Of a DNA stretch of 11,353 nt, positions 334 to 11,353 are shown piece after piece. Below the pieces are notes generated by a model. That model worked only from the letters and a program-made list of their open reading frames with translations, was not told the origin of the DNA and did not search any database. Origin of the DNA: Deltaproteobacteria bacterium RIFOXYA12_FULL_61_11 (GTDB taxonomy: Bacteria; Bdellovibrionota_F; JAHFAK01; YA12-FULL-61-11); NCBI GenBank assembly GCA_001799195.1, contig MGSU01000038.1:1-11353 (forward strand), given 5' to 3'. How positions within the stretch are numbered: the stretch's first letter is position 1; every line of letters starts with the position of its first letter. Position numbers and translations under genes: made by a program.

Positions 334-1692
334 ATGGAAAAAGTCAGAGTGCTGCTCTACGACGACGACGAGATCTATAAGAGCAGGCTGCTCAACTACC
401 TCAAGTCGGCAGGTTGCGCTACCGAGATCGTCGAAGACGGCGTCTCGCTGTGTGCAGCGGCCCAACGCGAAAAGACCGACCTCGTGGTACTCAGCGAGCA
501 CATGGCCCAACGCAATGCCCTGTCGGTCTTGCAGATCCTCGCAGAACTCATGCCGACAGTGCCGGTCTTCCTGCTCCACGAGAGCGACGGACAACACTTG
601 CAGCAACATAGTGCAGCCCACAGCGGGATCCGCCTCCTGCGCAAGCCCTTCCAACTCCAACCCTACGAAGCCGAATTCGCCGCCCTCCTCGCCGCCGCCA
701 GGACCCCGACGAACAAAACGCCACCGGCCCTGTCCGACGAGATCAAGGGCGATCATTCCTCGATCCAACAGCTCTTCCGGCTCATCGAACGCGTCGCCGG
801 TTCGGACAGTACCGTCCTGGTGCTGGGCGACAGCGGCACGGGCAAAGAACTCGTCGCCAGGGCCATCCACCGGCGCAGTCAACGCCGGGACCAACGCATG
901 GTCGCCGTGAACTGCGGGGCCATTCCCGAGAACCTGCTCGAGAGCGAGCTGTTCGGCCATGTCAAGGGAGCCTTCACCGGCGCGCTCTATGCCCGGGAGG
1001 GCCGCTTCCTGCAGGCCGACAAGGGAACCCTCTTCCTGGACGAGATCGCCGAAATGAGCCTGCCGATGCAGGTCAAATTGTTGCGGGTCCTCCAGGAGCG
1101 CTGTTTCGAACCGGTCGGTGGCTCGACCACGGTCTCGGTGGACGTCCGGGTCATCGCCGCGACCAACCGCGACCTGGAACAGATGGTCGCCGAGGGCCGC
1201 TTCCGCAAAGACCTCTTCTACCGGCTCAATGTCGTGCCCCTTTCCCTGCCCCGCCTCGCCGAGCGCCGCAGCGATATCCCCTGCCTCGCCGAGCACTTCC
1301 TGCAACGCTTCTCCTCCAAGAATCACCTGCCGATACCGGGGTTCAGCAAAGCAGCGATCGAGGTCCTCATCGCGTACCCCTGGCCGGGCAACGTGCGCGA
1401 ACTGGAGAACCTGGTCGAGCGGGTCACCGTGTTCAAGGGAGAGGGCCTCATCGAACTCGAAGACCTGCCCGATTCCATCCGCTTCCCCGGGATCAAAGCC
1501 GGCAGTGGAGGCACTCTCGAACTGACGAAAGAGGGCCTCGACCTCAACGCCACCCTCGAACGCCTGGAGAACGACCTCATCCTGCAAGCTCTGGCCATGA
1601 CCGGTGGAAACAAGCAACAGGCCGCCAATTTGCTCGGACTCAACCGGACCACCCTGGTCGAGAAACTCAAGAAGAAGAAGCTCCAGTTCTGA
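334..1692 (+). CDS. NtrC-family sigma54-dependent activator with degenerate receiver domain
   Basis: This 452-residue protein has the three-domain plan of NtrC-type enhancer-binding proteins. A receiver-like domain (about 4-120) keeps the acidic pocket (Asp11, Asp12) and the lysine (Lys104 in RKPF), but the phospho-acceptor position is Ser54 and the usual switch Thr/Ser at 82 is His. The AAA+ domain (about 135-370) looks fully active: Walker A GDSGTGKE 165-172, sigma54-contacting GAFTGA 212-217, Walker B GTLFLDE 231-237, ATNRD 276-280, FRKDLFYRL 290-298 and WPGNVRE 350-356. A Fis-type helix-turn-helix occupies about 413-447. It should remodel sigma54 RNA polymerase, perhaps constitutively or by a signal other than phosphorylation. 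ATG 334 is chosen because the receiver begins at once and GGAG sits at 325-328. An upstream extension to 232 is open but lacks domain content. No histidine kinase gene is adjacent; the motor cluster 189 bp downstream is the obvious candidate target. Confidence 0.93.
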   Translation: MEKVRVLLYDDDEIYKSRLLNYLKSAGCATEIVEDGVSLCAAAQREKTDLVVLSEHMAQRNALSVLQILAELMPTVPVFLLHESDGQHLQQHSAAHSGIRLLRKPFQLQPYEAEFAALLAAARTPTNKTPPALSDEIKGDHSSIQQLFRLIERVAGSDSTVLVLGDSGTGKELVARAIHRRSQRRDQRMVAVNCGAIPENLLESELFGHVKGAFTGALYAREGRFLQADKGTLFLDEIAEMSLPMQVKLLRVLQERCFEPVGGSTTVSVDVRVIAATNRDLEQMVAEGRFRKDLFYRLNVVPLSLPRLAERRSDIPCLAEHFLQRFSSKNHLPIPGFSKAAIEVLIAYPWPGNVRELENLVERVTVFKGEGLIELEDLPDSIRFPGIKAGSGGTLELTKEGLDLNATLERLENDLILQALAMTGGNKQQAANLLGLNRTTLVEKLKKKKLQF

Positions 1693-1881: not shown

Positions 1882-2568
1882 ATGGGCATTTTGAGGGTCA
1901 TGGAATCCGGTGGCGGATTTATGTGGTGGATTCTGCTCGCATTGCTCTTCGGTGTGGCCATCGCGCTCGAACGCCTCTTCATGGTCATGATTCGCTACAA
2001 CGTCAACGGTAACGACCTGATGATCAAGGTCCGCAAGAGCATCCTCGGCAACAAGCTCAATCGCGCCGTGGCCATCTGTGACGGGAAACCCCACGCGGCC
2101 CTGTCCATGGTCTTCAAGGCCGGTCTCCTGGCGATCGAGAAACCGGTCGCAGACATCGAGAAGGCGGTCGAGGATGCCTCGCTCGAGGCGATCCAAAAGA
2201 TCCAGACCCGCACGTCCTATCTCGGCACCATTGCCAACGTCGCCACCCTGCTCGGGCTGCTCGGGACCATTTTCGGTCTGATCGACTCCTTCGAATCGGT
2301 CGGCGCGGCCTCGGCCGAAGAGCGGCAAACCCTCCTCGCCGCCGGTATCTCCGTGGCCATGTATACCACCGCCTTCGGTCTGCTCGTGGCCATCCCCCTG
2401 CTCCTCATGTTCTCCATCATCAGCGGCAAGACCACGGCGATCATCGACGAGATCGACCTCTACGGCAGCAAGGTCCTGGACCTGATCAAAACGGCGAAAG
2501 AAGGGAAACTGCCGATCGAGGGTGGTGCGACCCCTGAAAAAGCGGGCGGCGAATTCGACGACATGTGA
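1882..2568 (+). CDS. MotA/TolQ/ExbB-family proton-channel motor subunit (AglR-like)
   Basis: This 228-residue inner-membrane protein has the family's three transmembrane segments: about 14-38 (WWILLALLFGVAIALERLF), 114-136 and 155-180. The two hallmark stretches are clear: LLGLLGTIFGL (123-133, with Thr129 in the channel) and AAGISVAMYTTAFGLLVAIP (153-172, with Thr162 and Thr163). Family members form a pentamer around a TolR/ExbD-type dimer and convert proton flow into movement of envelope partners. Start: ATG 1882 has GAGGGAGG (1866-1873) eight bases upstream; the in-frame GTG at 1876 is too close to that site. It is the first gene of the cluster, with two ExbD-like genes directly after it, the same order as the Myxococcus aglRQS motor. 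The family assignment is firm; equating it with AglR rather than TolQ or ExbB rests on context. Confidence 0.93.
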   Translation: MGILRVMESGGGFMWWILLALLFGVAIALERLFMVMIRYNVNGNDLMIKVRKSILGNKLNRAVAICDGKPHAALSMVFKAGLLAIEKPVADIEKAVEDASLEAIQKIQTRTSYLGTIANVATLLGLLGTIFGLIDSFESVGAASAEERQTLLAAGISVAMYTTAFGLLVAIPLLLMFSIISGKTTAIIDEIDLYGSKVLDLIKTAKEGKLPIEGGATPEKAGGEFDDM

Positions 2569-2588
2569 CCGCAGTGGGGGAGTAAATC

Positions 2589-3113
2589 ATGGGCAAGGCT
2601 TCGGACAGGTCACGGACCAACAAGGATCCAGCGCTGACCATGTTCCCGATGATGAACCTGATGGTGATCCTCGTTCCCTTTCTCTTGACCTCGGCGGCGT
2701 TCTACCACATGGCCATCGTCAACACGACGGTCCTCACCGACAACCCCGAGACCGGGAAGATCCAGGACACCCAAATCATCCCCCTCGACCTGTATCTCTA
2801 CCTCAAGGCCGAAGGTCTCACACTCGAGTCCTCGCGTCCCATGTACGAGGGCAAGAGCCGCGTCGATTTCCCCATGTTGCCACCGGGTAACACCTACGAT
2901 TTCCCAGGGCTACGCGACATCCTCATCAAGGTGAAGACCGAGAACGAGCTCGTCACCACCATGTTCATCTTGGCCGACCCCGGGGTGACCTACGACAATG
3001 TCATCAAGGCCATCGATCACTGTCGCGACGACGGTAAACCGGTCCCTAGTCCCGAGGGTCCGCCCATGCCGCGCGAGCTGTTTCCCAAGGTCACCATCAT
3101 GCGTGCGCAATAG
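2589..3113 (+). CDS. ExbD/TolR-family protein with Asn in place of the channel Asp
   Basis: A 174-residue bitopic inner-membrane protein has a short basic cytoplasmic N-terminus, one transmembrane helix (about 18-42) and a periplasmic domain. In ExbD and TolR the helix starts with a conserved aspartate that carries the proton. Here the aligned motif is PMMNLMVILVPFLL, with Asn23 (codon AAC, 2655-2657) where Asp is expected, and Pro30 inside the helix. The C-terminal part (about 104-172, LRDILIKVKTENELVTTMFILADPGVTYDNVIKAIDHCRDDG) fits the ExbD fold. It probably pairs with the next gene product in a mixed dimer inside the TolQ-like ring. Alone it should not conduct protons. GGGGGAG at 2576-2582 is its ribosome site, and 20 bases separate it from the previous gene. 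Confidence 0.88.
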   Translation: MGKASDRSRTNKDPALTMFPMMNLMVILVPFLLTSAAFYHMAIVNTTVLTDNPETGKIQDTQIIPLDLYLYLKAEGLTLESSRPMYEGKSRVDFPMLPPGNTYDFPGLRDILIKVKTENELVTTMFILADPGVTYDNVIKAIDHCRDDGKPVPSPEGPPMPRELFPKVTIMRAQ

Positions 3114-3124
3114 GCAGGTAGGTC

Positions 3125-3688
3125 ATGAGAAAGACGATCAGCAGCAAGCGGGGGTCGAGAAGGAATCGCATCCAGGATATCGATCTGAACATCACCTCCA
3201 TGATGGACATCTTCACCATCCTCCTCGTCTTCCTGCTCAAGAGCTATTCCGTAACCGAGGCCGTGCTCATCGCCCCCAAAGACGTGGCCCTGCCGACCTC
3301 GACCTCCCAGATCGACCCCAAGGTCTCCATTGACATCCAGATCTCGAAGACCAGCGTGGTCTTTGACGGCAAACCCGTCGTGGCGGTCATCGACGGCAAG
3401 ATCGACCGCTCGTACTACGACGAGAACAACCTCATCGCGCCGTTGCTCAAGGTCATCCAAGACAAGCTCAAGTCCTTCGAATACATTGCCCAACTCCGGC
3501 AGGACAATGCCCCTCAAGTCGAAGATACCGGCGAAGAGGGAGAGGAGGAGGACGAAACCGCCGAGAAATCAATTCTTGTCATGGCGCACAAAGAGTTGGA
3601 CTTCAAAGTGGTCGAGGACGTGCTCTACACCGCGGCCGGAGCCGGCGTCGGCAAGTTCCGGTTCGCCGTCCAGAAGCTCGGAGAGTAG
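3125..3688 (+). CDS. ExbD/TolR-family protein with intact channel Asp and acidic insertion
   Basis: This 187-residue protein has a basic N-terminus (1-18), one transmembrane helix (about 23-45, NITSMMDIFTILLVFLL) and a periplasmic ExbD-like domain. Asp28 occupies the conserved proton-binding position, so this is probably the active stator partner of the TolQ-like protein, complementing the Asn paralogue encoded just upstream. Canonical TolR/ExbD proteins are about 140 residues. The extra length comes largely from a segment rich in Glu and Asp (about 132-147, TGEEGEEEDETAE) inserted before the final alpha-beta unit (154-185), which may be a flexible loop or a cation- or partner-binding patch. 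The gene starts 11 bases after the previous stop and has AGG at 3116-3118. In aglRQS terms it occupies the third position (AglS), but I would not transfer the name. Confidence 0.9.
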   Translation: MRKTISSKRGSRRNRIQDIDLNITSMMDIFTILLVFLLKSYSVTEAVLIAPKDVALPTSTSQIDPKVSIDIQISKTSVVFDGKPVVAVIDGKIDRSYYDENNLIAPLLKVIQDKLKSFEYIAQLRQDNAPQVEDTGEEGEEEDETAEKSILVMAHKELDFKVVEDVLYTAAGAGVGKFRFAVQKLGE

Positions 3689-3706
3689 CCACAGGGGGCA
3701 GGGACG

Positions 3707-4414
3707 ATGAAAGTACTAGCACCAACGCTTGCGCTCTTCGTGTGCGCGGCGCTCTTGCTCGCCACCCCGGGATGGGGTCAGGATTTCGACGAGTACGAGG
3801 ATGAACTGATCCTGCCCACCGACGAAGAAGCGGTGAACGTGGTCCAGAAGAAGCGGTATCTCAAGCGCGGCAAGGTCGAGATCACCCCCAAGGGAGGCAT
3901 TGTCGTCAACGACAACTTCCTCAAGGTCAACCCGGTGGGCCTGACCTTCGACATCTTCTTCTCCGAGTACTGGGCGCTCGAACTCGAGGGCCTCTATGTC
4001 ATCACCAGCAAGACCTCCTTCACCGAGTACCTCGAGCAGGACTTCGACATCGTGCCCGAGTACAACAGCCAGACCTGGCAGGGCATCGGCTCCCTGCAGT
4101 GGTGTCCCCTCTACGGCAAGATGAGTTTCCTGGCCGGGACCATCATTCCCTACGACATGTTCTTCACCCTCGGCGGAGGTATGGTCGGGACCGATTCCGG
4201 CGCCTACCCCCTCGGCTCCTTCGGTTTCGGTCAACGTTTTTTCCTCTTCCCGCTCCTCGTGCTGCGTTTCGACCTGAAGTTCAATTACATCAAAGAGAAA
4301 ATCCAGGTGCTCGATCCGACCACCGGCAACGCGATCGAAGGCGAGCTGCGCCCCAACGACAAGTTCGACTTCGGGGTGTTCGGCGGCCTCAGCCTGTTCC
4401 TGCCGACCTTCTGA
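3707..4414 (+). CDS. Small outer-membrane beta-barrel protein (myxobacterial OMP type)
   Basis: A 235-residue exported protein. Residues 1-24 form a signal peptide (hydrophobic LALFVCAALLLATPGWG, likely cut before Gln25), followed by an acidic linker (26-42). From about 47 the chain alternates polar and hydrophobic residues in short strands (KVEITPKGGIVVND; WALELEGLYVI; FFTLGGGMVG; LLVLRFDLKFNYI; FDFGVFGGLSLFLPTF), and it ends in phenylalanine, the usual BAM assembly signal. The stretch VVQKKRYLKRGKVEIT...VNDNF resembles what I recall of a short barrel family common in myxobacteria that includes GltA/GltB-like proteins; a profile search would be needed to confirm this. It probably provides the outer-membrane contact of the machine. 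GGGGGCAGGG precedes the ATG, and the gap to the ExbD gene is 18 bases. Confidence 0.8.
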   Translation: MKVLAPTLALFVCAALLLATPGWGQDFDEYEDELILPTDEEAVNVVQKKRYLKRGKVEITPKGGIVVNDNFLKVNPVGLTFDIFFSEYWALELEGLYVITSKTSFTEYLEQDFDIVPEYNSQTWQGIGSLQWCPLYGKMSFLAGTIIPYDMFFTLGGGMVGTDSGAYPLGSFGFGQRFFLFPLLVLRFDLKFNYIKEKIQVLDPTTGNAIEGELRPNDKFDFGVFGGLSLFLPTF

Positions 4415-4424
4415 GGGGGACCCC

Positions 4425-5993
4425 ATGACCCGCATCCTTCTCGTCCTCCTGCTGGGCTTCGCGGTTGCCGTCACCTCGGTCGAAGCCGCCAAGAAGAAAC
4501 GCGATCGCCGCGAAGAAGGCGAGGACGAAGCCCCTTCCTCGGAGCTCGACATCTCCCGCGAGATCGACCTGGTCATCGAAGAGTACTACCAGAGCGAAGA
4601 AGACTACCATTCGGCCTCCCACAAGCTCCTCTTCCTGGCCAAGAACGCGAAAAAAAAAAGGGATAGTGCCAAGGCCTATTACTATGTGGGGCGCTCCCTC
4701 TTGAAACTCGGGTTGGTCTACTCGGCCATTCCGTTTTTGATCAAGGCAATCTCCTCGGATAACCGGCACTATACTCCTCTCGCGCTCAAGGGACTGTTCC
4801 GCATTTCAGAATATCTCAAAGAAGACAAGTTCTTACACTCGGCCATGGAGGAACTCGACTACGATTACCTCCCCACCGAGAGCCGCGCGGAGGTCAACTA
4901 CTACCTCGGAAAATCCTACTTCGGCGATGAACTCTACGAGAAGGCGATGCGCAAGTTCCAGAAGGTCATCGCCGGCAGCCACTTCTTCAGCGCCTCGCTC
5001 TATTTCCGCGGTCTGATCTATTACAAGGACGGGAACCTCCAGAAGGCCGCGGAGTTCTTCAAGGAGATCCTGGACCTCGAAGGTGCCGAAGGTACCCTCG
5101 TCTATGACTTGGCGGCCCTGGCCCTCGGGAGACTCTATTACGAACTCCAAGCCTTCAGCCGCGCCATCACCGCGTACCGGCTGGTCACCAAGTGGAGTTC
5201 AGTCTGGCACGAGGCCCTGTTCGAGAGCAGTTGGGCCTATTTCATGGCCGGAAACCCCCAGAAGGCCCTGGGTAATCTGCATTCGGTCCACTCTCCTTTC
5301 TTCGACCGCTATTTCAATCCCGAGAGCTATCTGCTGAAAGCGATCATCTTCTACTCCTTCTGCTGGTACGGTGATGCCGACAAATCGGTGACGGATTTCC
5401 TGCAGCGCTACACCACCCTGTCCGCCTACATCTCCAAGCTGCAAGAGGTCTATGAACAGGCCGACCCGCAACAGGTTTTCCTCAGCCTCTCGAAGAAGGC
5501 TCAGAGCGGGGACCAGAAAGACGAATACTACAAGATGATCTTCAACTTCATCCTCACCGAGAAGACCTTCTCGAAGACCGTCCACCAGATCGACGTGCTC
5601 GAACGGGAACTCCAAGCCGACACCACGGCCCCCGATTTCTGGCAGCGGGAATTCTTCCCGCCGATCAAACAACAATTGATGAAGCGGCGCGAGGCCAAGG
5701 AGAAAGCCGCCGGCTTCTTCGTGCGCGACTTTTTAAAGAAAGACGCCATGGACCTCAAGAACCAGATCAACCAGGCGCAGATCATCCAACTCGAGATCAA
5801 GAGTTCGGAGATGACCCGGCTTGAGGAGAAGCTCCGGCAGCTCGGCCAGAAGACCGTGGAGAAGAAGGTCAAGGAGAAGGACATCCTGATCGATGTCGGG
5901 TTCGAGTTCTGGCCCTTCACCGGTGAATATTGGAAGGACGAGGTCGGTTACTACATCTATAACATCGTCAACATCTGCGCGAAGCAACAATGA
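4425..5993 (+). CDS. Periplasmic TPR protein with conserved C-terminal aromatic motif (GltC-like in context)
   Basis: A 522-residue exported protein: signal peptide 1-21 (TRILLVLLLGFAVAVTSVEA), a charged linker (22-40), then helical repeats of TPR type from about 44 to 345, for example YYLGKSYFGDELYEKAMRKFQKVI and SLYFRGLIYYKDGNLQKAAEFFKEIL. A long charged coiled-coil-like segment (about 410-485) leads to a C-terminal motif FEFWPFTGEYWKDEVGYY (493-510). TPR arrays usually act as binding scaffolds; placement after the barrel gene matches the GltA-GltB-GltC arrangement in Myxococcus, though homology was not tested. GAGGGGGA at 4413-4420 supports the start. Odd feature: codons 76-79 contain ten consecutive adenines (4650-4659) in a GC-rich gene; gain or loss of one A truncates the protein at 80 or 92 residues. 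Confidence 0.85.
   Translation: MTRILLVLLLGFAVAVTSVEAAKKKRDRREEGEDEAPSSELDISREIDLVIEEYYQSEEDYHSASHKLLFLAKNAKKKRDSAKAYYYVGRSLLKLGLVYSAIPFLIKAISSDNRHYTPLALKGLFRISEYLKEDKFLHSAMEELDYDYLPTESRAEVNYYLGKSYFGDELYEKAMRKFQKVIAGSHFFSASLYFRGLIYYKDGNLQKAAEFFKEILDLEGAEGTLVYDLAALALGRLYYELQAFSRAITAYRLVTKWSSVWHEALFESSWAYFMAGNPQKALGNLHSVHSPFFDRYFNPESYLLKAIIFYSFCWYGDADKSVTDFLQRYTTLSAYISKLQEVYEQADPQQVFLSLSKKAQSGDQKDEYYKMIFNFILTEKTFSKTVHQIDVLERELQADTTAPDFWQREFFPPIKQQLMKRREAKEKAAGFFVRDFLKKDAMDLKNQINQAQIIQLEIKSSEMTRLEEKLRQLGQKTVEKKVKEKDILIDVGFEFWPFTGEYWKDEVGYYIYNIVNICAKQQ
4650..4659 (+). repeat. Ten-adenine homopolymer inside the TPR gene
   Basis: The run of ten A followed by GGG encodes Lys-Lys-Lys-Arg (76-79). 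Gain of one A brings TAG in frame after five codons; loss of one A gives a stop (TGA) 17 codons after the start of the tract. It could support replication slippage or transcriptional slippage. The gene is in frame with exactly ten A in this sequence. Confidence 0.9.
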
Positions 5994-6027
5994 CAGCCCC
6001 GCAGTGGTCCCGGCCCCACGACCCCGA

Positions 6028-6051
6028 CCACGGCCTCGCAACCTGCCGTGG
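6028..6051 (+). other. Hairpin in the 79-bp gap between the two TPR genes
   Basis: CCACGGC (6028-6034) and GCCGTGG (6045-6051) are perfect 7-bp arms around a 10-base loop. No U-rich tail follows, so it is unlikely to be an intrinsic terminator. It lies 21 bases upstream of the next ATG and 7 bases from its GAGGA site, so it could be an mRNA processing, stability or translation-control element that sets different levels of the two proteins. Confidence 0.35.
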
Positions 6052-6072
6052 CCACCTCGAGGATTGCAGTCC

Positions 6073-9033
6073 ATGGGAGTACTGAGTACGATGCACGCTC
6101 TGAGCCTCACCCTCTTCGCCCTTTTCGTGGTCCTCGCAACTTTCTCGCAAAGCCCCGCCGTTGCCGAGGACAAGAGCCTCGACGAAATCTACCGGCAGGG
6201 CCAGGACCTGACCGAGAGCAAACGCGAGGAATTGATCAAGCTGACCGAGGACATCCTGCGCAATGCCGAGAACCGCGACTCCCCCGACCTGTGGCTCCGC
6301 TTGGCCGAATACTACTGGGAAAAGGGAAGGGCCAGGTTCATCAAAGAGAACGAGGCGATCGACCAGGGAAAAATGAAACCCGGGAAGAAGGCCTTCGAGG
6401 AGTCGGAGAAGTACAAGAACAAAGCGGTGAAGATCTATCAACAGATCGCCAAGCAGCACCCCGACTATCCCGATCGGGACAAGGTCCTCTTGCTGCTCGG
6501 CCTCGCCCTGTACGAGATGGGGCACCAGGACCTCGCCATCAACCAACTCAAAGAGGTTTCCCAGACCACGAAGAAGGTCCCCTATAAGATCCATGCCAAC
6601 CTCTCCCTCGGGGAACACTACTTCCAGGAAGGGAAACCCGAGATCGCCGTGCCCTATTACGAGTTCCTGCTGCGCTACAAGGACTCGAAGTTCTACAAGC
6701 TGGCCCTGTACAAGCTGGCCTGGTGCTACTACAACATGAAGGACTACAAGCAGGCCTTCCGTTACTTCAAGTCGATCATCAACATCGAGAGCAACACGAC
6801 CTTCCAGCAGACCCTCGAGGCCTTCGAGATCAAAGACGAAGCGGCCAAGGGCATCGTCCTCGTCTTCGCCGACATGGTCGAGGGGCCTGAGGCCAAGACC
6901 GCCAAGACCCTGCTCTATAGCATCTCTCCCAAGAACTACGGGTTGATGCTCTATCGGCTCATCAACCTTTTCTTCGACCAGGGCAAGAATCAAGAAGCCA
7001 TATGGGTTGCCCAGGACTATTTGGCCATCGACCCGTACCAGAACTTCAACCCCTTGGTGCAGAAGATCGTCTACGAAGCCTATTACAAGCTGGACCAGTT
7101 CAACGAGTCGATCCTGGCCAAGAAGATTTTCCAGGAGAAATACAACCCCGAAGCCCCGTGGTTCAAACATACCTCTCGGAAACAAGAAGAGCGCGAGAAG
7201 GTCATGGAGCTCATGGATGTCGTACTCAAATCCCTGATTACGCACTACCAGACCGTGGCCATGAAGCTCAAGAAGCAGGATCTCATCGCCGAGACCAAAC
7301 ACTGGTATGACCTCTATTTCGCCTATTTCCCCAACTCCAAGGCCAAGTTCTCCCTGCAATTGAAATACGCCGAATTCCTCTACGAACTCGGCGAGTACAT
7401 GGCCGCCTTCGATTACTACATGGCCCTGATGGCAAGCTCGTTCGAGAGGACCATGAAGCTCAAGATCGCCAACGACGCCATCCTCTCCCTCGAGAACCTC
7501 AAGAAGCAACTGACGGAGAAGAAACAACCCCATCCGCCGGAGCTCAACGAGAAGCTGCTCTTCGGTTACCAGGAATACCTCAAGCTGAAGCCCGGGAAGA
7601 AGGAAACCATCACGACGACCCTCGCCGTGGCCAAGATCTTCCACGAACTCAAGAAGGAAGACGCGGCGGAAAAAATCTGCCTACAGCTCATCGAGGAGCA
7701 CACCAATACCCAGGAAGCGCTCTTCGCGGCCCAACTCATCTTGAAGATCCACTCCGACCGCAAGGACACGAAGAAGCTCAACGACTACGCCAAGCAATTC
7801 CTGGCCAAGCGCGAGTTGCACCACGATGGCTTCAAGAAGGATCTCGAGATCATCTACGAGCGGACTTCTTTCCAGCTCATCGAGAAGCTGATCGACGAGC
7901 AACAATACGCCCAGGCCGCGGAAGCCTACATGGCCTTCATCGGGGAATTCCCGACCTCGCAATTCCTGGACAAGGCTTACAATAACGCGGGCATCAACTT
8001 CGAGAAGGCGGGAATGACCGCCAAGGCCGTACCGTGCTACATGGCCATCATCACCAAGCTGCCCTCCTCCTCGAACTTCGATTCCAGCGTCAAGAACGTC
8101 ATCCGGCTGCATACGGCCACGGGCAACTTCGACGCCCTCGCCGACTTCATGGTCTATTTTTCCCTGAAATACCCCAAGCGCGAGGAGTCCCCCGGCTACC
8201 TCTTCCAGGCCGCTGTGTTCTACGAGAAGCTCGGCAACACCAACAAAGCGGTCGAGCTGTATACGACGTTCGCGCAACGCTATCCCCAGCATCCCAAGGC
8301 CGCCCATCTCACCTTCAAGATCGCCGAGGTCTGGCGCGAGGCCGGAAAATCGGCCAACGCGAAGAAAACCTATCAGAAGTACCTGGACGAGGGAGCGCGC
8401 ACCGAGGACAACACCCTGCTCTGCTGGTATCACCTCGGCAAGCTCGGAACCCCTGCTGAAAAAGAAACCTCCTTCCGCAAGGGAGCGAACTACTTCGATG
8501 GGGTGAAGAAGAAGGGCGCGCTCAAGGAAGGCTTGCAGGCCGCGGCCGAGATGAAGATGTTCCTCCTCGATAAGGATTACGACGAATTCCTGAAGATCGA
8601 ACTCAAACTCCCGGAATCCAATTTCCCCAAACAGATCAAGAGGAAAGGAGAACTTAAAGAACAATTGGAGGAAGCCTTCCTCCAACTCATCGAGTTGGGC
8701 GTCAACGATGTCGGTATCGAGGCCCTGGTCAAGATCGCCATGCTCCGGGTCGACTTGCAGGACATGCTGCTGAACGACCCGACCCTGATGAAGATCGATC
8801 CGGAGGAGCGCGAGGCGGTCAAGGCCGAGCTCCGCGCTCAGACCCAGCCGCTCATCGATGAAGCGGTCAGCTTCCTGCAAAAGGGCGTGGACATCGCCTT
8901 CAATTTCAACATCTACAACGATTGGACGAACAAGGCTCAAGACCTCTTGGGCAAGCTCACCGGCCAGCTCCGCTTCAAACCGGTCTTCCGCATGAGCGGT
9001 ACCAATCTCGACTTCGTCACCGAGGTGAACTGA
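6073..9033 (+). CDS. Very large periplasmic TPR-repeat scaffold protein (GltD/AgmU-like in context)
   Basis: This 986-residue protein begins with a signal peptide (1-31, hydrophobic core LSLTLFALFVVLATF, likely cut at AVA|ED) and is then almost wholly helical repeat. Clear TPR units include about 173-240 (HANLSLGEHYFQEGKPEIAV; LAWCYYNMKDYKQAFRYFKSI) and about 629-775 (AYNNAGINFEKAGMTAKAVPCY; LFQAAVFYEKLGNTNKAVEL; IAEVWREAGKSANAKKTY). The C-terminus carries NIYNDWTNKAQDLLGKL (946-962). Its job is probably to bridge the motor and outer-membrane parts across the periplasm; the size and domain type match AgmU/GltD, but orthology is inferred only from context. The frame is open from 5893, inside the previous gene, but ATG 6073 gives a proper signal peptide and has GAGGA at 6059-6063. 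ATG 6091 is a weaker alternative. Lys and Glu are abundant. Confidence 0.85.
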   Translation: MGVLSTMHALSLTLFALFVVLATFSQSPAVAEDKSLDEIYRQGQDLTESKREELIKLTEDILRNAENRDSPDLWLRLAEYYWEKGRARFIKENEAIDQGKMKPGKKAFEESEKYKNKAVKIYQQIAKQHPDYPDRDKVLLLLGLALYEMGHQDLAINQLKEVSQTTKKVPYKIHANLSLGEHYFQEGKPEIAVPYYEFLLRYKDSKFYKLALYKLAWCYYNMKDYKQAFRYFKSIINIESNTTFQQTLEAFEIKDEAAKGIVLVFADMVEGPEAKTAKTLLYSISPKNYGLMLYRLINLFFDQGKNQEAIWVAQDYLAIDPYQNFNPLVQKIVYEAYYKLDQFNESILAKKIFQEKYNPEAPWFKHTSRKQEEREKVMELMDVVLKSLITHYQTVAMKLKKQDLIAETKHWYDLYFAYFPNSKAKFSLQLKYAEFLYELGEYMAAFDYYMALMASSFERTMKLKIANDAILSLENLKKQLTEKKQPHPPELNEKLLFGYQEYLKLKPGKKETITTTLAVAKIFHELKKEDAAEKICLQLIEEHTNTQEALFAAQLILKIHSDRKDTKKLNDYAKQFLAKRELHHDGFKKDLEIIYERTSFQLIEKLIDEQQYAQAAEAYMAFIGEFPTSQFLDKAYNNAGINFEKAGMTAKAVPCYMAIITKLPSSSNFDSSVKNVIRLHTATGNFDALADFMVYFSLKYPKREESPGYLFQAAVFYEKLGNTNKAVELYTTFAQRYPQHPKAAHLTFKIAEVWREAGKSANAKKTYQKYLDEGARTEDNTLLCWYHLGKLGTPAEKETSFRKGANYFDGVKKKGALKEGLQAAAEMKMFLLDKDYDEFLKIELKLPESNFPKQIKRKGELKEQLEEAFLQLIELGVNDVGIEALVKIAMLRVDLQDMLLNDPTLMKIDPEEREAVKAELRAQTQPLIDEAVSFLQKGVDIAFNFNIYNDWTNKAQDLLGKLTGQLRFKPVFRMSGTNLDFVTEVN

Positions 9034-10223
9034 TGAGACCCCTGCTGCTCCTCAGCGCCCTGCTGTTCCTGGTTTCCTGCGGCGGGGCCACGAAGCACCA
9101 ACCGGAACTCGGCCCTTACGAGCGCGGCCTCAAACTGGTAGAGAAGAGCCAGCTCAACGACAAGGACTATGCCGAAGCCATGACCTGCTTCGAGGAATGC
9201 CTCGGCACCAACCCCAAAGACACCCGCGCGCTCAACGGAATTGCCAGGTTGCACCTCAAACAGGGCAAGTACGACCGGGCCAGGGACACCTTCGAGCGTG
9301 TCCTGGCGATTGATCCCGAGGACGGTTTTGCCAACAGCGGCGTGGCCCGCATCCTGATCAAGCAAGAGCGTTACAGCGAAGCCCGCGATTACATCGGAAA
9401 GAAGCTCGAGGGCGAGCGCGACCCGAAAAAGATTGCGCCCTTGCGCTTGGTCTTGGGCACCATCTTGCTCATCGAACAGGAGTACGACGAGGCCCTCTCC
9501 CATCTCCAGAAAGTCCTCGAGATCGATATCAACGCCGAGTACTACAAAGAAGCCCTGCTCAAGATCGCGGTCATCCACATCAAGAAGGGCGACAAAGACA
9601 AGGCAAGGCTGATCCTGCTCAACTACACCAGCAATAAAGGCGACGACCCGCGCATCGACCTCATCCTGGGCACCCTCTTCGTGCAAGAAGACAAGATCTC
9701 GGAGGCCATTTCCCTGTTCAAGAAGGCGCTCGAAACCGACAACTCCTTGGTCGAGGCCTATCTCAACCTCTCCTCGATCTACCTGCGTTACTCCAATTAC
9801 CCGGCCGCCCTCGAACTGTGCAACCAGGGCTTGCAGTATGCTCCGGCCAACGAGGATCTGCTCTGTTGCAAGGCGATTGCCACCATCCACACCGGCAACA
9901 CCGACGAAGGACTCGAGGACCTGCGCAAGCTCAACCTGCGCGGCACCAGGCCCGAGATCTCCTACGAGCTCGGCGTGGCCTACTGGAAGACGGGCCGCCT
10001 CCCCGAGGCGCTCTCCTCCTTCAACGCCTATAAGATCGAGGCCCCGAAGCCGGACAAGGTCGTTGACGAGTACATTGCCATGATCGAGCGTGCCATCCAG
10101 GAGATCGAGGAAGAACGCCGTCAGGCCGCCGAGGCTCAACGCCGCTCTCAAGAAGGCGGCGCCAAGCAGGGCGAGGCGCCCCCCCCTCAGGATGCCCCTC
10201 CGCCCGAGGACGAGGCTCCCTGA
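9033..10223 (+). CDS. TPR-repeat lipoprotein, probably outer membrane (GltE-like in context)
   Basis: A 396-residue protein with a lipoprotein signal (MRPLLLLSALLFLVSC, lipobox LVSC with Cys16). Gly17 follows the lipidated Cys rather than Asp, which favours outer-membrane sorting by the usual Lol rule. Residues about 44-335 form a regular array of eight or nine TPR units (for example ALNGIARLHLKQGKYDRARDTFERVLAIDP and AYLNLSSIYLRYSNYPAALELCNQGL). The tail is charged helix (350-372) followed by a Pro-rich end (381-396), which may cross or contact peptidoglycan. It is translationally coupled to the large TPR gene (TGATG, one-base overlap; GAGGTGA at 9022-9028). A TPR lipoprotein next to a large TPR protein recalls GltD-GltE of Myxococcus. 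A run of eight C (10179-10186) sits in the Pro-rich tail. Confidence 0.88.
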   Translation: MRPLLLLSALLFLVSCGGATKHQPELGPYERGLKLVEKSQLNDKDYAEAMTCFEECLGTNPKDTRALNGIARLHLKQGKYDRARDTFERVLAIDPEDGFANSGVARILIKQERYSEARDYIGKKLEGERDPKKIAPLRLVLGTILLIEQEYDEALSHLQKVLEIDINAEYYKEALLKIAVIHIKKGDKDKARLILLNYTSNKGDDPRIDLILGTLFVQEDKISEAISLFKKALETDNSLVEAYLNLSSIYLRYSNYPAALELCNQGLQYAPANEDLLCCKAIATIHTGNTDEGLEDLRKLNLRGTRPEISYELGVAYWKTGRLPEALSSFNAYKIEAPKPDKVVDEYIAMIERAIQEIEEERRQAAEAQRRSQEGGAKQGEAPPPQDAPPPEDEAP

Positions 10224-10242
10224 GCCCCGACGAACCCACGCC

Positions 10243-11172
10243 ATGCCCCGGAGCTTCGTCGTCATCAACCCGGCCTCAGGGGCCGGCAAAACCGCCAAAC
10301 GCTGGCCGAGCTTGCTGAAGAGCTTCGAACACGCCACCGGCCGAACCTTTGAGCACGGCCTGACCAGCGGTCCGGGGGATGCCCGCCGACTGGTCGAGAA
10401 AGCGCTCACCGCCGGCTACGACGAAATCCTCGCCTTGGGCGGCGACGGTACCCATCATGAAGCGGTGAGCGGTTTCTTCGACGACGATTTGCGCCCTTTG
10501 GCCCCCGACGCGACGTTCGTCCCCCTGGCTTCAGGGACCGGTTCGGATTACGTCCGGACCCTGCGCGCGCTCGGTTGGTACGGCGATCCCCTCGCCGTCC
10601 TCACCAGCCCCAATCGACGCTCCGTCTCCCTGGGCACTTACCGTTGCATGGCCCCCGAAGGGGAGGAGGTGCGCGGCATTTTTCTCAACATCCTCGATGT
10701 CGGTCTCGGCGCCAGCGTGGTCAAGGTGGTCAACGCCTCCTCGAAGTCGAGCGGCGGCTTCCTGACCTTCTTCCTCGGCTGCCTGCGCGTCCTGTTCGGC
10801 TACCGTCCTGCGACCGTGCAGCTCACCTGCGATGGAGAAGCCCACACGCTCGAGCAGGTCCGGGTCGTCGCCGTGGCCCTCGGCCGTTACTTTGGCGGCG
10901 GCATGCACATCGCCCCCTCTGCTTCGCCCGAGGGAGAGCGCTTCTCGACTGTCATCCTCGCCGGCCGCAACGGCTGGTCCTTGTTCAACCACGCACCGGA
11001 CATCTACCTCGGCACCCACCTCAGGTCGAAGATCTCACGCCAGCTCGAGGGAACGCGCCTCCTCCTCACCTCTGCCGAAACCGTAGAACTCGAGGTCGAC
11101 GGCGAACCCGTCGGCCGCTTACCGCTCGAGGTCGAACTCCGACCTCGTGCCCTCTGGTTGAAAACGCTATGA
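10243..11172 (+). CDS. Diacylglycerol/lipid kinase family protein (DagK/YegS/sphingosine-kinase fold)
   Basis: A 309-residue protein, the normal length for this family. It probably phosphorylates a lipid alcohol such as diacylglycerol with ATP at the inner face of the membrane. Visible motifs are [11 protein letters not shown] (6-16), nucleotide-binding [15 protein letters not shown] (63-77), [14 protein letters not shown] (94-107), [12 protein letters not shown] (149-160), [14 protein letters not shown] (218-231) and the C-terminal [10 protein letters not shown] (285-294). Two usual active-site positions differ: Ser101 replaces the common Asn of GT-ND, and Glu230 stands where Asp of the DDG motif is expected. 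ATG 10243 places the first motif at its usual distance; I see no clear ribosome site, so coupling to the TPR gene 19 bases upstream is possible. It overlaps era by four bases. It may simply be a housekeeping gene unrelated to the machine. Confidence 0.9.
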
Positions 11173-11353
11173 CTACCTTCCGCTCAGGTTTCGTCGGCAT
11201 CATTGGGATCCCCAACGTCGGCAAGTCGACCCTCCTCAACGCCCTGGTCGGCGAGAAGGTCTCGATCGTCTCGCCCAAACCCCAGACCACCCGCAACCGG
11301 ATCCTCGGCATCCTTAATGCCCCCGACCACCAAGTCGTGTTCCTGGACACGCC
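11169..11353 (+). CDS. era: GTPase Era, 5' part only
   Basis: Only the first 61 codons lie in the window. They read as the start of Era, the essential GTPase that binds 16S rRNA and assists 30S subunit maturation. G1 is GIPNVGKST (13-21), the G2 region is [14 protein letters not shown] (35-48), matching the Era-specific QTTR element, and G3 begins with FLDT (58-61) at the window edge. The start ATG overlaps the kinase stop (ATGA), so the two are probably co-translated. Truncation is due to the window, not a defect. Confidence 0.93.

Follow-up and report, generated by a model that had tools for sequence, protein, structure and literature searches.

The window, i.e. the whole stretch of 11,353 nucleotides analyzed, hosts seven closely spaced genes on the same strand (Table 1), as reported in the initial annotation. 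Intergenic gaps vary from -1 to 79 bp, which is operon spacing. The first three genes encode AglR-, AglQ- and AglS-like proteins in R-Q-S order (PF01618, then PF02472 twice), confirming the aglRQS order read at first from the sequence, and the AglR protein falls in the Agl-type clade, whose operons feature ExbD genes in tandem. The barrel encoded by the fourth gene belongs to a family of myxobacterial outer-membrane proteins (TIGR04565), and its AF2 model, with 8 predicted strands, resembles OmpW (Foldseek 2f1v, prob 1.00, TMt 0.65). The GltC match spans residues 57-519 of the protein and 129-620 of profile NF033756; its score is close to that of a Myxococcaceae paralogue (210.6 bits), both being below the equivalog cut-off of 450. 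GltC is single copy, one strong match being found in the genome. GltD and GltE were assigned from position and weak scores, GltD scoring 59-232 bits against the GltD proteins of relatives, GltE 53.9 bits against NF033758 gliding_GltE, under the cut-off of 225.

Table 1. Position of the genes and codons discussed in the text; coordinates refer to the window, except for the last line
Feature	Coordinates	Strand	Family match or remark
Sigma-54-type response regulator, upstream	334..1692	+	PF00158 E 6.9e-73, receiver domain
Cluster of seven same-strand genes	1882-10223	+	motor, barrel, GltC-, GltD- and GltE-like TPR proteins
AglR/TolQ-like ring subunit, 228 aa	1882..2568	+	PF01618 E 3.3e-24; profile alignment to TolQ of PDB 8odt
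AglR codon ACC, Thr129	2266..2268	+	ExbB T148 position, proton path; invariant in A1
AglR codon GTG, Val158	2353..2355	+	TolQ E173/ExbB E176 position
AglR codon ACC, Thr163	2368..2370	+	ExbB T181 position, proton path; invariant in A1
AglQ-position TolR/ExbD-like subunit, 174 aa	2589..3113	+	PF02472 E 1e-6; proton-binding Asp absent
AglQ codon AAC, Asn23	2655..2657	+	site of the proton-binding Asp (TolR D23, M. xanthus AglQ D28)
AglQ codon CCC, Pro30	2676..2678	+	signature Pro, seven residues past the Asp site
AglS-position TolR/ExbD-like subunit, 187 aa	3125..3688	+	PF02472 E 1.3e-12
AglS codon GAC, Asp28	3206..3208	+	sole rotor proton site left
Outer-membrane 8-stranded barrel, GltA/GltB/NfsA-type position, 235 aa	3707..4414	+	TIGR04565 81.7 bits, cut-off 60
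GltC-like periplasmic TPR protein, 522 aa	4425..5993	+	NF033756 gliding_GltC E 6.5e-62, 210.1 bits
GltD-like large periplasmic TPR protein, 986 aa	6073..9033	+	signal peptide; TPR domains; position after GltC
GltE-like TPR lipoprotein, 396 aa	9033..10223	+	lipobox LVSC; position after GltD in relatives
GltG-like protein, contig C14 of the same genome (G000)	7580-8986	-	NF033760 E 1.5e-57; SS-tail domain 105 bits, cut-off 40; N-terminal FHA part absent

The Agl-Glt gene set of the genome

The cluster is an Agl-Glt/Nfs-type machine, of the "core complex" type described by Luciano in 2011 (PMC3169522). This type is made up by aglR, Q and S plus gltC, D, E and G, its function in most hosts is unknown, and it is regarded as the ancestor-like set from which the gliding (Agl-Glt) and the spore-coat (Nfs) machines of Myxococcus were built (PMC3169522). 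The window shares with the core complex the motor gene order, the GltC part, the putative GltD and GltE parts, and their clustering. The identification, proposed earlier from the letters only, is borne out by the GltC match, by the barrel family, and by relatives with the same clustered parts: at loci retrieved by the AglR search, GltC-GltD-GltE, AglR-AglQ-AglS, GltG and a small gene similar to GltF are encoded contiguously.

Family scans of the nine main proteins detected no TolA/TonB, TolB, Pal or GltG-like genes within the window, all of which had been listed as missing from the cluster. For GltG this holds inside the window, but not genome-wide. Unlike in the core complex, a GltG-like gene resides on another contig, C14, adjoining a GltF/CglF-like gene (NF033764 E 6.7e-10). 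The gene set is thus split between two loci and not minimal, and the notion of a minimal machine without GltG was dropped. Nor is the cluster specially compact or minimal, as had been thought, clustering being the ordinary arrangement both in the core complex and in 33/33 comparable loci. At the C14 locus (7580-11253) two same-strand ORFs without family match precede the GltF/CglF-like and GltG-like genes, and this locus is possibly the missing half of the window operon.

A second AglR-AglQ-AglS cassette of the same genome (contig C324, 3948-9584) is followed by an FHA-bearing GltG-like protein, is divergent from the flagellar hook genes flgD/flgE, and has no adjoining GltC/D/E genes. Its AglQ features Thr at the Asp site and the same Pro as the window AglQ. 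In genome G001, which belongs to the phylum of the window, an AglQ/AglS motor with Asp in both subunits (L120/L073, contig C154) and a barrel-GltC-GltD-CglF-GltG cluster (L056, contig C148) are found on distinct contigs. The Nfs spore-coat machine of M. xanthus (nfsA-H) similarly features a set of the barrel-GltC-GltD-GltE-GltF-GltG type in one cluster (cf. L060; PMC3858216), but borrows AglRQS from another locus, while the window cluster encodes its own motor.

An AglQ without the proton-binding aspartate

The axle helix of the known 5:2 motors MotAB, ExbBD and TolQR carries one proton-accepting Asp, regarded as essential. The window motor shares with these the ring and axle fold, the ring Thr residues and, in AglS, the axle Asp. 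In AglQ the acid is replaced by Asn. The initial annotation, accurate on the type of machine and wrong or overstated on minimality and on GltG, had overlooked this change. The M. xanthus gliding motor AglRQS (MXAN_6860-6862) has homologous subunits in the same TolQ-TolR-TolR order, but differs in three respects: Asp is found in both AglQ (D28) and AglS, the rings of its clade have Glu at the TolQ E173 position where the window ring has Val158, and glt neighbours are missing, the window motor residing inside a Glt cluster.

AglR-anchored operons were retrieved from 377 genomes of one phylum (Myxococcota-titled loci included), five of another, and 386 domain-wide, and 133 distinct AglR-Q-S operons with two ExbD genes were obtained. 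The AglQ acid is missing in 94/133 operons, a ratio not to be read as prevalence, the collection profile being rich in non-Asp motors; Asn is found in 78, Ser in 10, Ala in 3, Gly in 2, Thr in one, and Asp is retained in 39. The Asp of AglS is found in 133/133. This one-sidedness, the loss always hitting AglQ and never AglS, is independent of the profile bias. Pro at +7 from the Asp site marks all non-Asp AglQ proteins (94/94) and none of those with Asp (0/39). In L210 (G159, 6916-8977) three consecutive ExbD genes follow AglR, the residues at their Asp sites being N, D and N.

The ring changes along with the axle. The position of TolQ E173/ExbB E176 was placed by profile alignment to TolQ of PDB 8odt; Glu occupies it in 33 of the 39 Asp-type operons and in 0/94 non-Asp operons, which feature a hydrophobic residue or Thr. 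Both ring threonines, corresponding to ExbB T148 and T181, for which a role in the proton path is described in PMC6778125, are kept, and a proton path is therefore still expected. In four isolated Asp-type operons within the non-Asp group the ring Glu has not been regained, which weakens a strict AglQ-AglR coupling. The coupled changes are phylogenetically clustered and reduce to few independent events, and could reflect history instead of contact.

The TM segment is among the best conserved parts of AglQ, residues P20, M22, N23, P30 and L32 being invariant in A2. In the AF2 model (pLDDT 80) a single TM helix (18-42) is followed by a periplasmic domain, and the closest structure is E. coli TolR (5by4; Z 10.0, rmsd 2.5 over 83 residues). 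Foldseek E-values were weak; the second comparison ranks TolR first, the other ExbD/TolR rows being modestly above unrelated folds. As judged from the model, non-Asp AglQ remains a proper TolR-type protein. A PDB sequence search with AglS alone returned nothing useful.

The Asp-less AglQ is what is new here, conserved across a large family and many lineages, the system itself being known. No report of it was found in the literature searched, most subscription journals lying outside that search, and a word search of PMC3169522 found no mention of the loss.

Distribution and history of non-Asp motors

At loci with enough flank, Glt-type genes lie on the same strand as the motor in 33/33 non-Asp cases versus 2/19 Asp-type ones (Fisher p 8e-12, kinship ignored). 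GltD/E was found at 30 of the 33 non-Asp loci, GltG at 32, and the cluster is hence conserved as a unit. There is one clear exception: L219 (G113), located inside the non-Asp clade, has Asp, no Pro and a non-Glu ring, and keeps its Glt neighbours. This locus makes a useful natural revertant.

The tree of AglR+AglQ+AglS, the segment bearing the trait being removed, calls for five changes, each imposed by branches with good support; were the loss irreversible, 18 losses would be required on the same tree. A clade of Asp-type motors similar to MXAN_3003-5 is nested inside the non-Asp group. Its placement carries some doubt, because this clade has Glu and lacks Pro, like the outgroup. A single clean clade of non-Asp motors was rejected by the AU test (p 0.0017, isolated Asp rows left out) and by bootstrap. 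A single early loss of Asp followed by a few regains, including one in G001, a relative from the class of the window, is the simplest reading. Trees of AglQ only, or AglS only, do not resolve the branching order, these alignments being too short.

The MXAN_3003-3005-like motor (M2) falls in the same AglR-Q-S clade as the window motor, but differs from it in having Asp in both TolR-like subunits and no adjoining glt genes. The L118-type motor was identified as the M. xanthus gliding motor by protein lengths and D28 position, compared with Table 1 of PMC3169522 (AglR 245, AglQ 162, AglS 194 aa). It is Asp-type, falls in the basal Asp-type clade, and has no adjoining glt genes. The alternative of the L119-type as the gliding motor, with a regained Asp, was dropped, the L118-type fitting by both lengths and D28. 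In several large genomes (L214-L216, L220-L222, L224, L236, L237) gliding-type and MXAN_3003-5-type Asp motors are adjoining and divergent.

Models for the motor

According to PMC9389320, it is not known if AglQ pairs with AglS or each of the two with itself. A homodimer of the window-type AglQ could not carry protons at the Asp site, which leaves a heterodimeric axle with one site, or an AglQ placed outside the axle. AglQ in the pore beside AglS fits best, because its TM segment is conserved and the acid of the ring lumen is lost along with the AglQ Asp. The axle of this Agl-Glt/Nfs-type trans-envelope machine is most likely an AglQ-AglS heterodimer, with one proton site in place of two; the probability of this reading is put at about 0.6. 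Five AglR copies would form an inner-membrane ring around a two-helix axle, made up by one Asp-less AglQ (Asn23/Pro30) and one Asp-bearing AglS (Asp28), the whole being an AglR5-AglQ-AglS rotary motor. Rotary models have two Asp residues alternating, with 36 degrees per proton (PMC12215075); the window motor, if it rotates, may use fewer protons, or take larger steps, per turn. Driven by protons, the axle would move the assembly of GltC, GltD, GltE and barrel, spanning periplasm and outer membrane, via GltG and peptidoglycan contacts. GltG would transmit the movement to this assembly; contact between GltG and AglR is indicated by two-hybrid data (PMC3169522). At the cell surface, the machine would most likely move or position a complex or polymer, a task similar to that of Nfs. 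Gliding would seem less likely, no GltJ having been found in the 87%-complete genome, where the search for the GltG/GltJ C-terminal domain gave two matches over cut-off, both GltG-like.

The main rival to the heterodimer, itself unlikely, is an axle formed by two AglS copies, with two Asp as in ExbBD, the Asp-less AglQ acting outside the ring as an accessory peptidoglycan-binding or assembly factor. The Asp found in AglS throughout the 133 operons agrees with this, as does the TolR-like periplasmic domain kept by AglQ, which could act without a ring; conservation of the AglQ TM segment does not, nor does the loss of the ring-lumen Glu accompanying the Asp-to-Asn/Pro change. In M. xanthus, moreover, the D28N exchange in AglQ removes proton conductance, and both Agl-Glt and Agl-Nfs are paralysed, which places AglQ within that channel (PMC3858216). 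The same paralysing mutant resembles the neutral residue found naturally at the Asp site, and lends something to the view of AglQ as a brake or regulator built into the motor: axles containing both AglQ and AglS would run slowly or not at all, those of AglS only would run, and the dose of AglQ would set activity. Several neutral residues are tolerated, as expected if the loss of the acid alone matters; yet the AglQ and AglS genes always adjoin each other and keep one order in the operon, which points to a fixed stoichiometry, and a brake is improbable.

Readings unrelated to Agl-Glt, such as a Tol-Pal or Ton-like system or an accidental grouping of TPR genes, are strongly disfavoured. Motor subunits do match TolQ and TolR profiles, if weakly, but the GltC match (E 6.5e-62), the barrel family above cut-off, the gene order, which many genomes share and which includes AglR-Q-S and GltG, and the GltG-like protein in the same genome all speak against it.

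The axles of ExbBD, TolQR and MotAB are homodimers with two Asp, unlike the one proposed for the window. If true, an obligate one-site heterodimer would contradict the assumption of two alternating Asp shared by current rotary models. There is an even chance that the 5:2 family includes a large natural class of motors whose axle is obligately heterodimeric and has a single proton site, and whose ring is devoid of lumenal Glu. Such motors would produce torque without two-Asp alternation, and this state would be fixed specifically where the motor is part of a Glt-type cluster. The removal of Asp by evolution from one defined partner, never from the other, is a natural experiment on two-Asp models and on the AglQ-AglS pairing. 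Asp-less AglQ motors are useful for testing how rotary motors work, both outcomes, heterodimer or AglQ outside the axle, being testable.

As to the flanks of the cluster, the upstream sigma-54-type response regulator is a possible candidate regulator. In the last part of the window (10243-11353) a YegS-type lipid kinase starts 19 bp after GltE, which is operon spacing; the GTPase Era comes next, Der further on, and read-through from the cluster into the housekeeping genes downstream of the kinase may occur.
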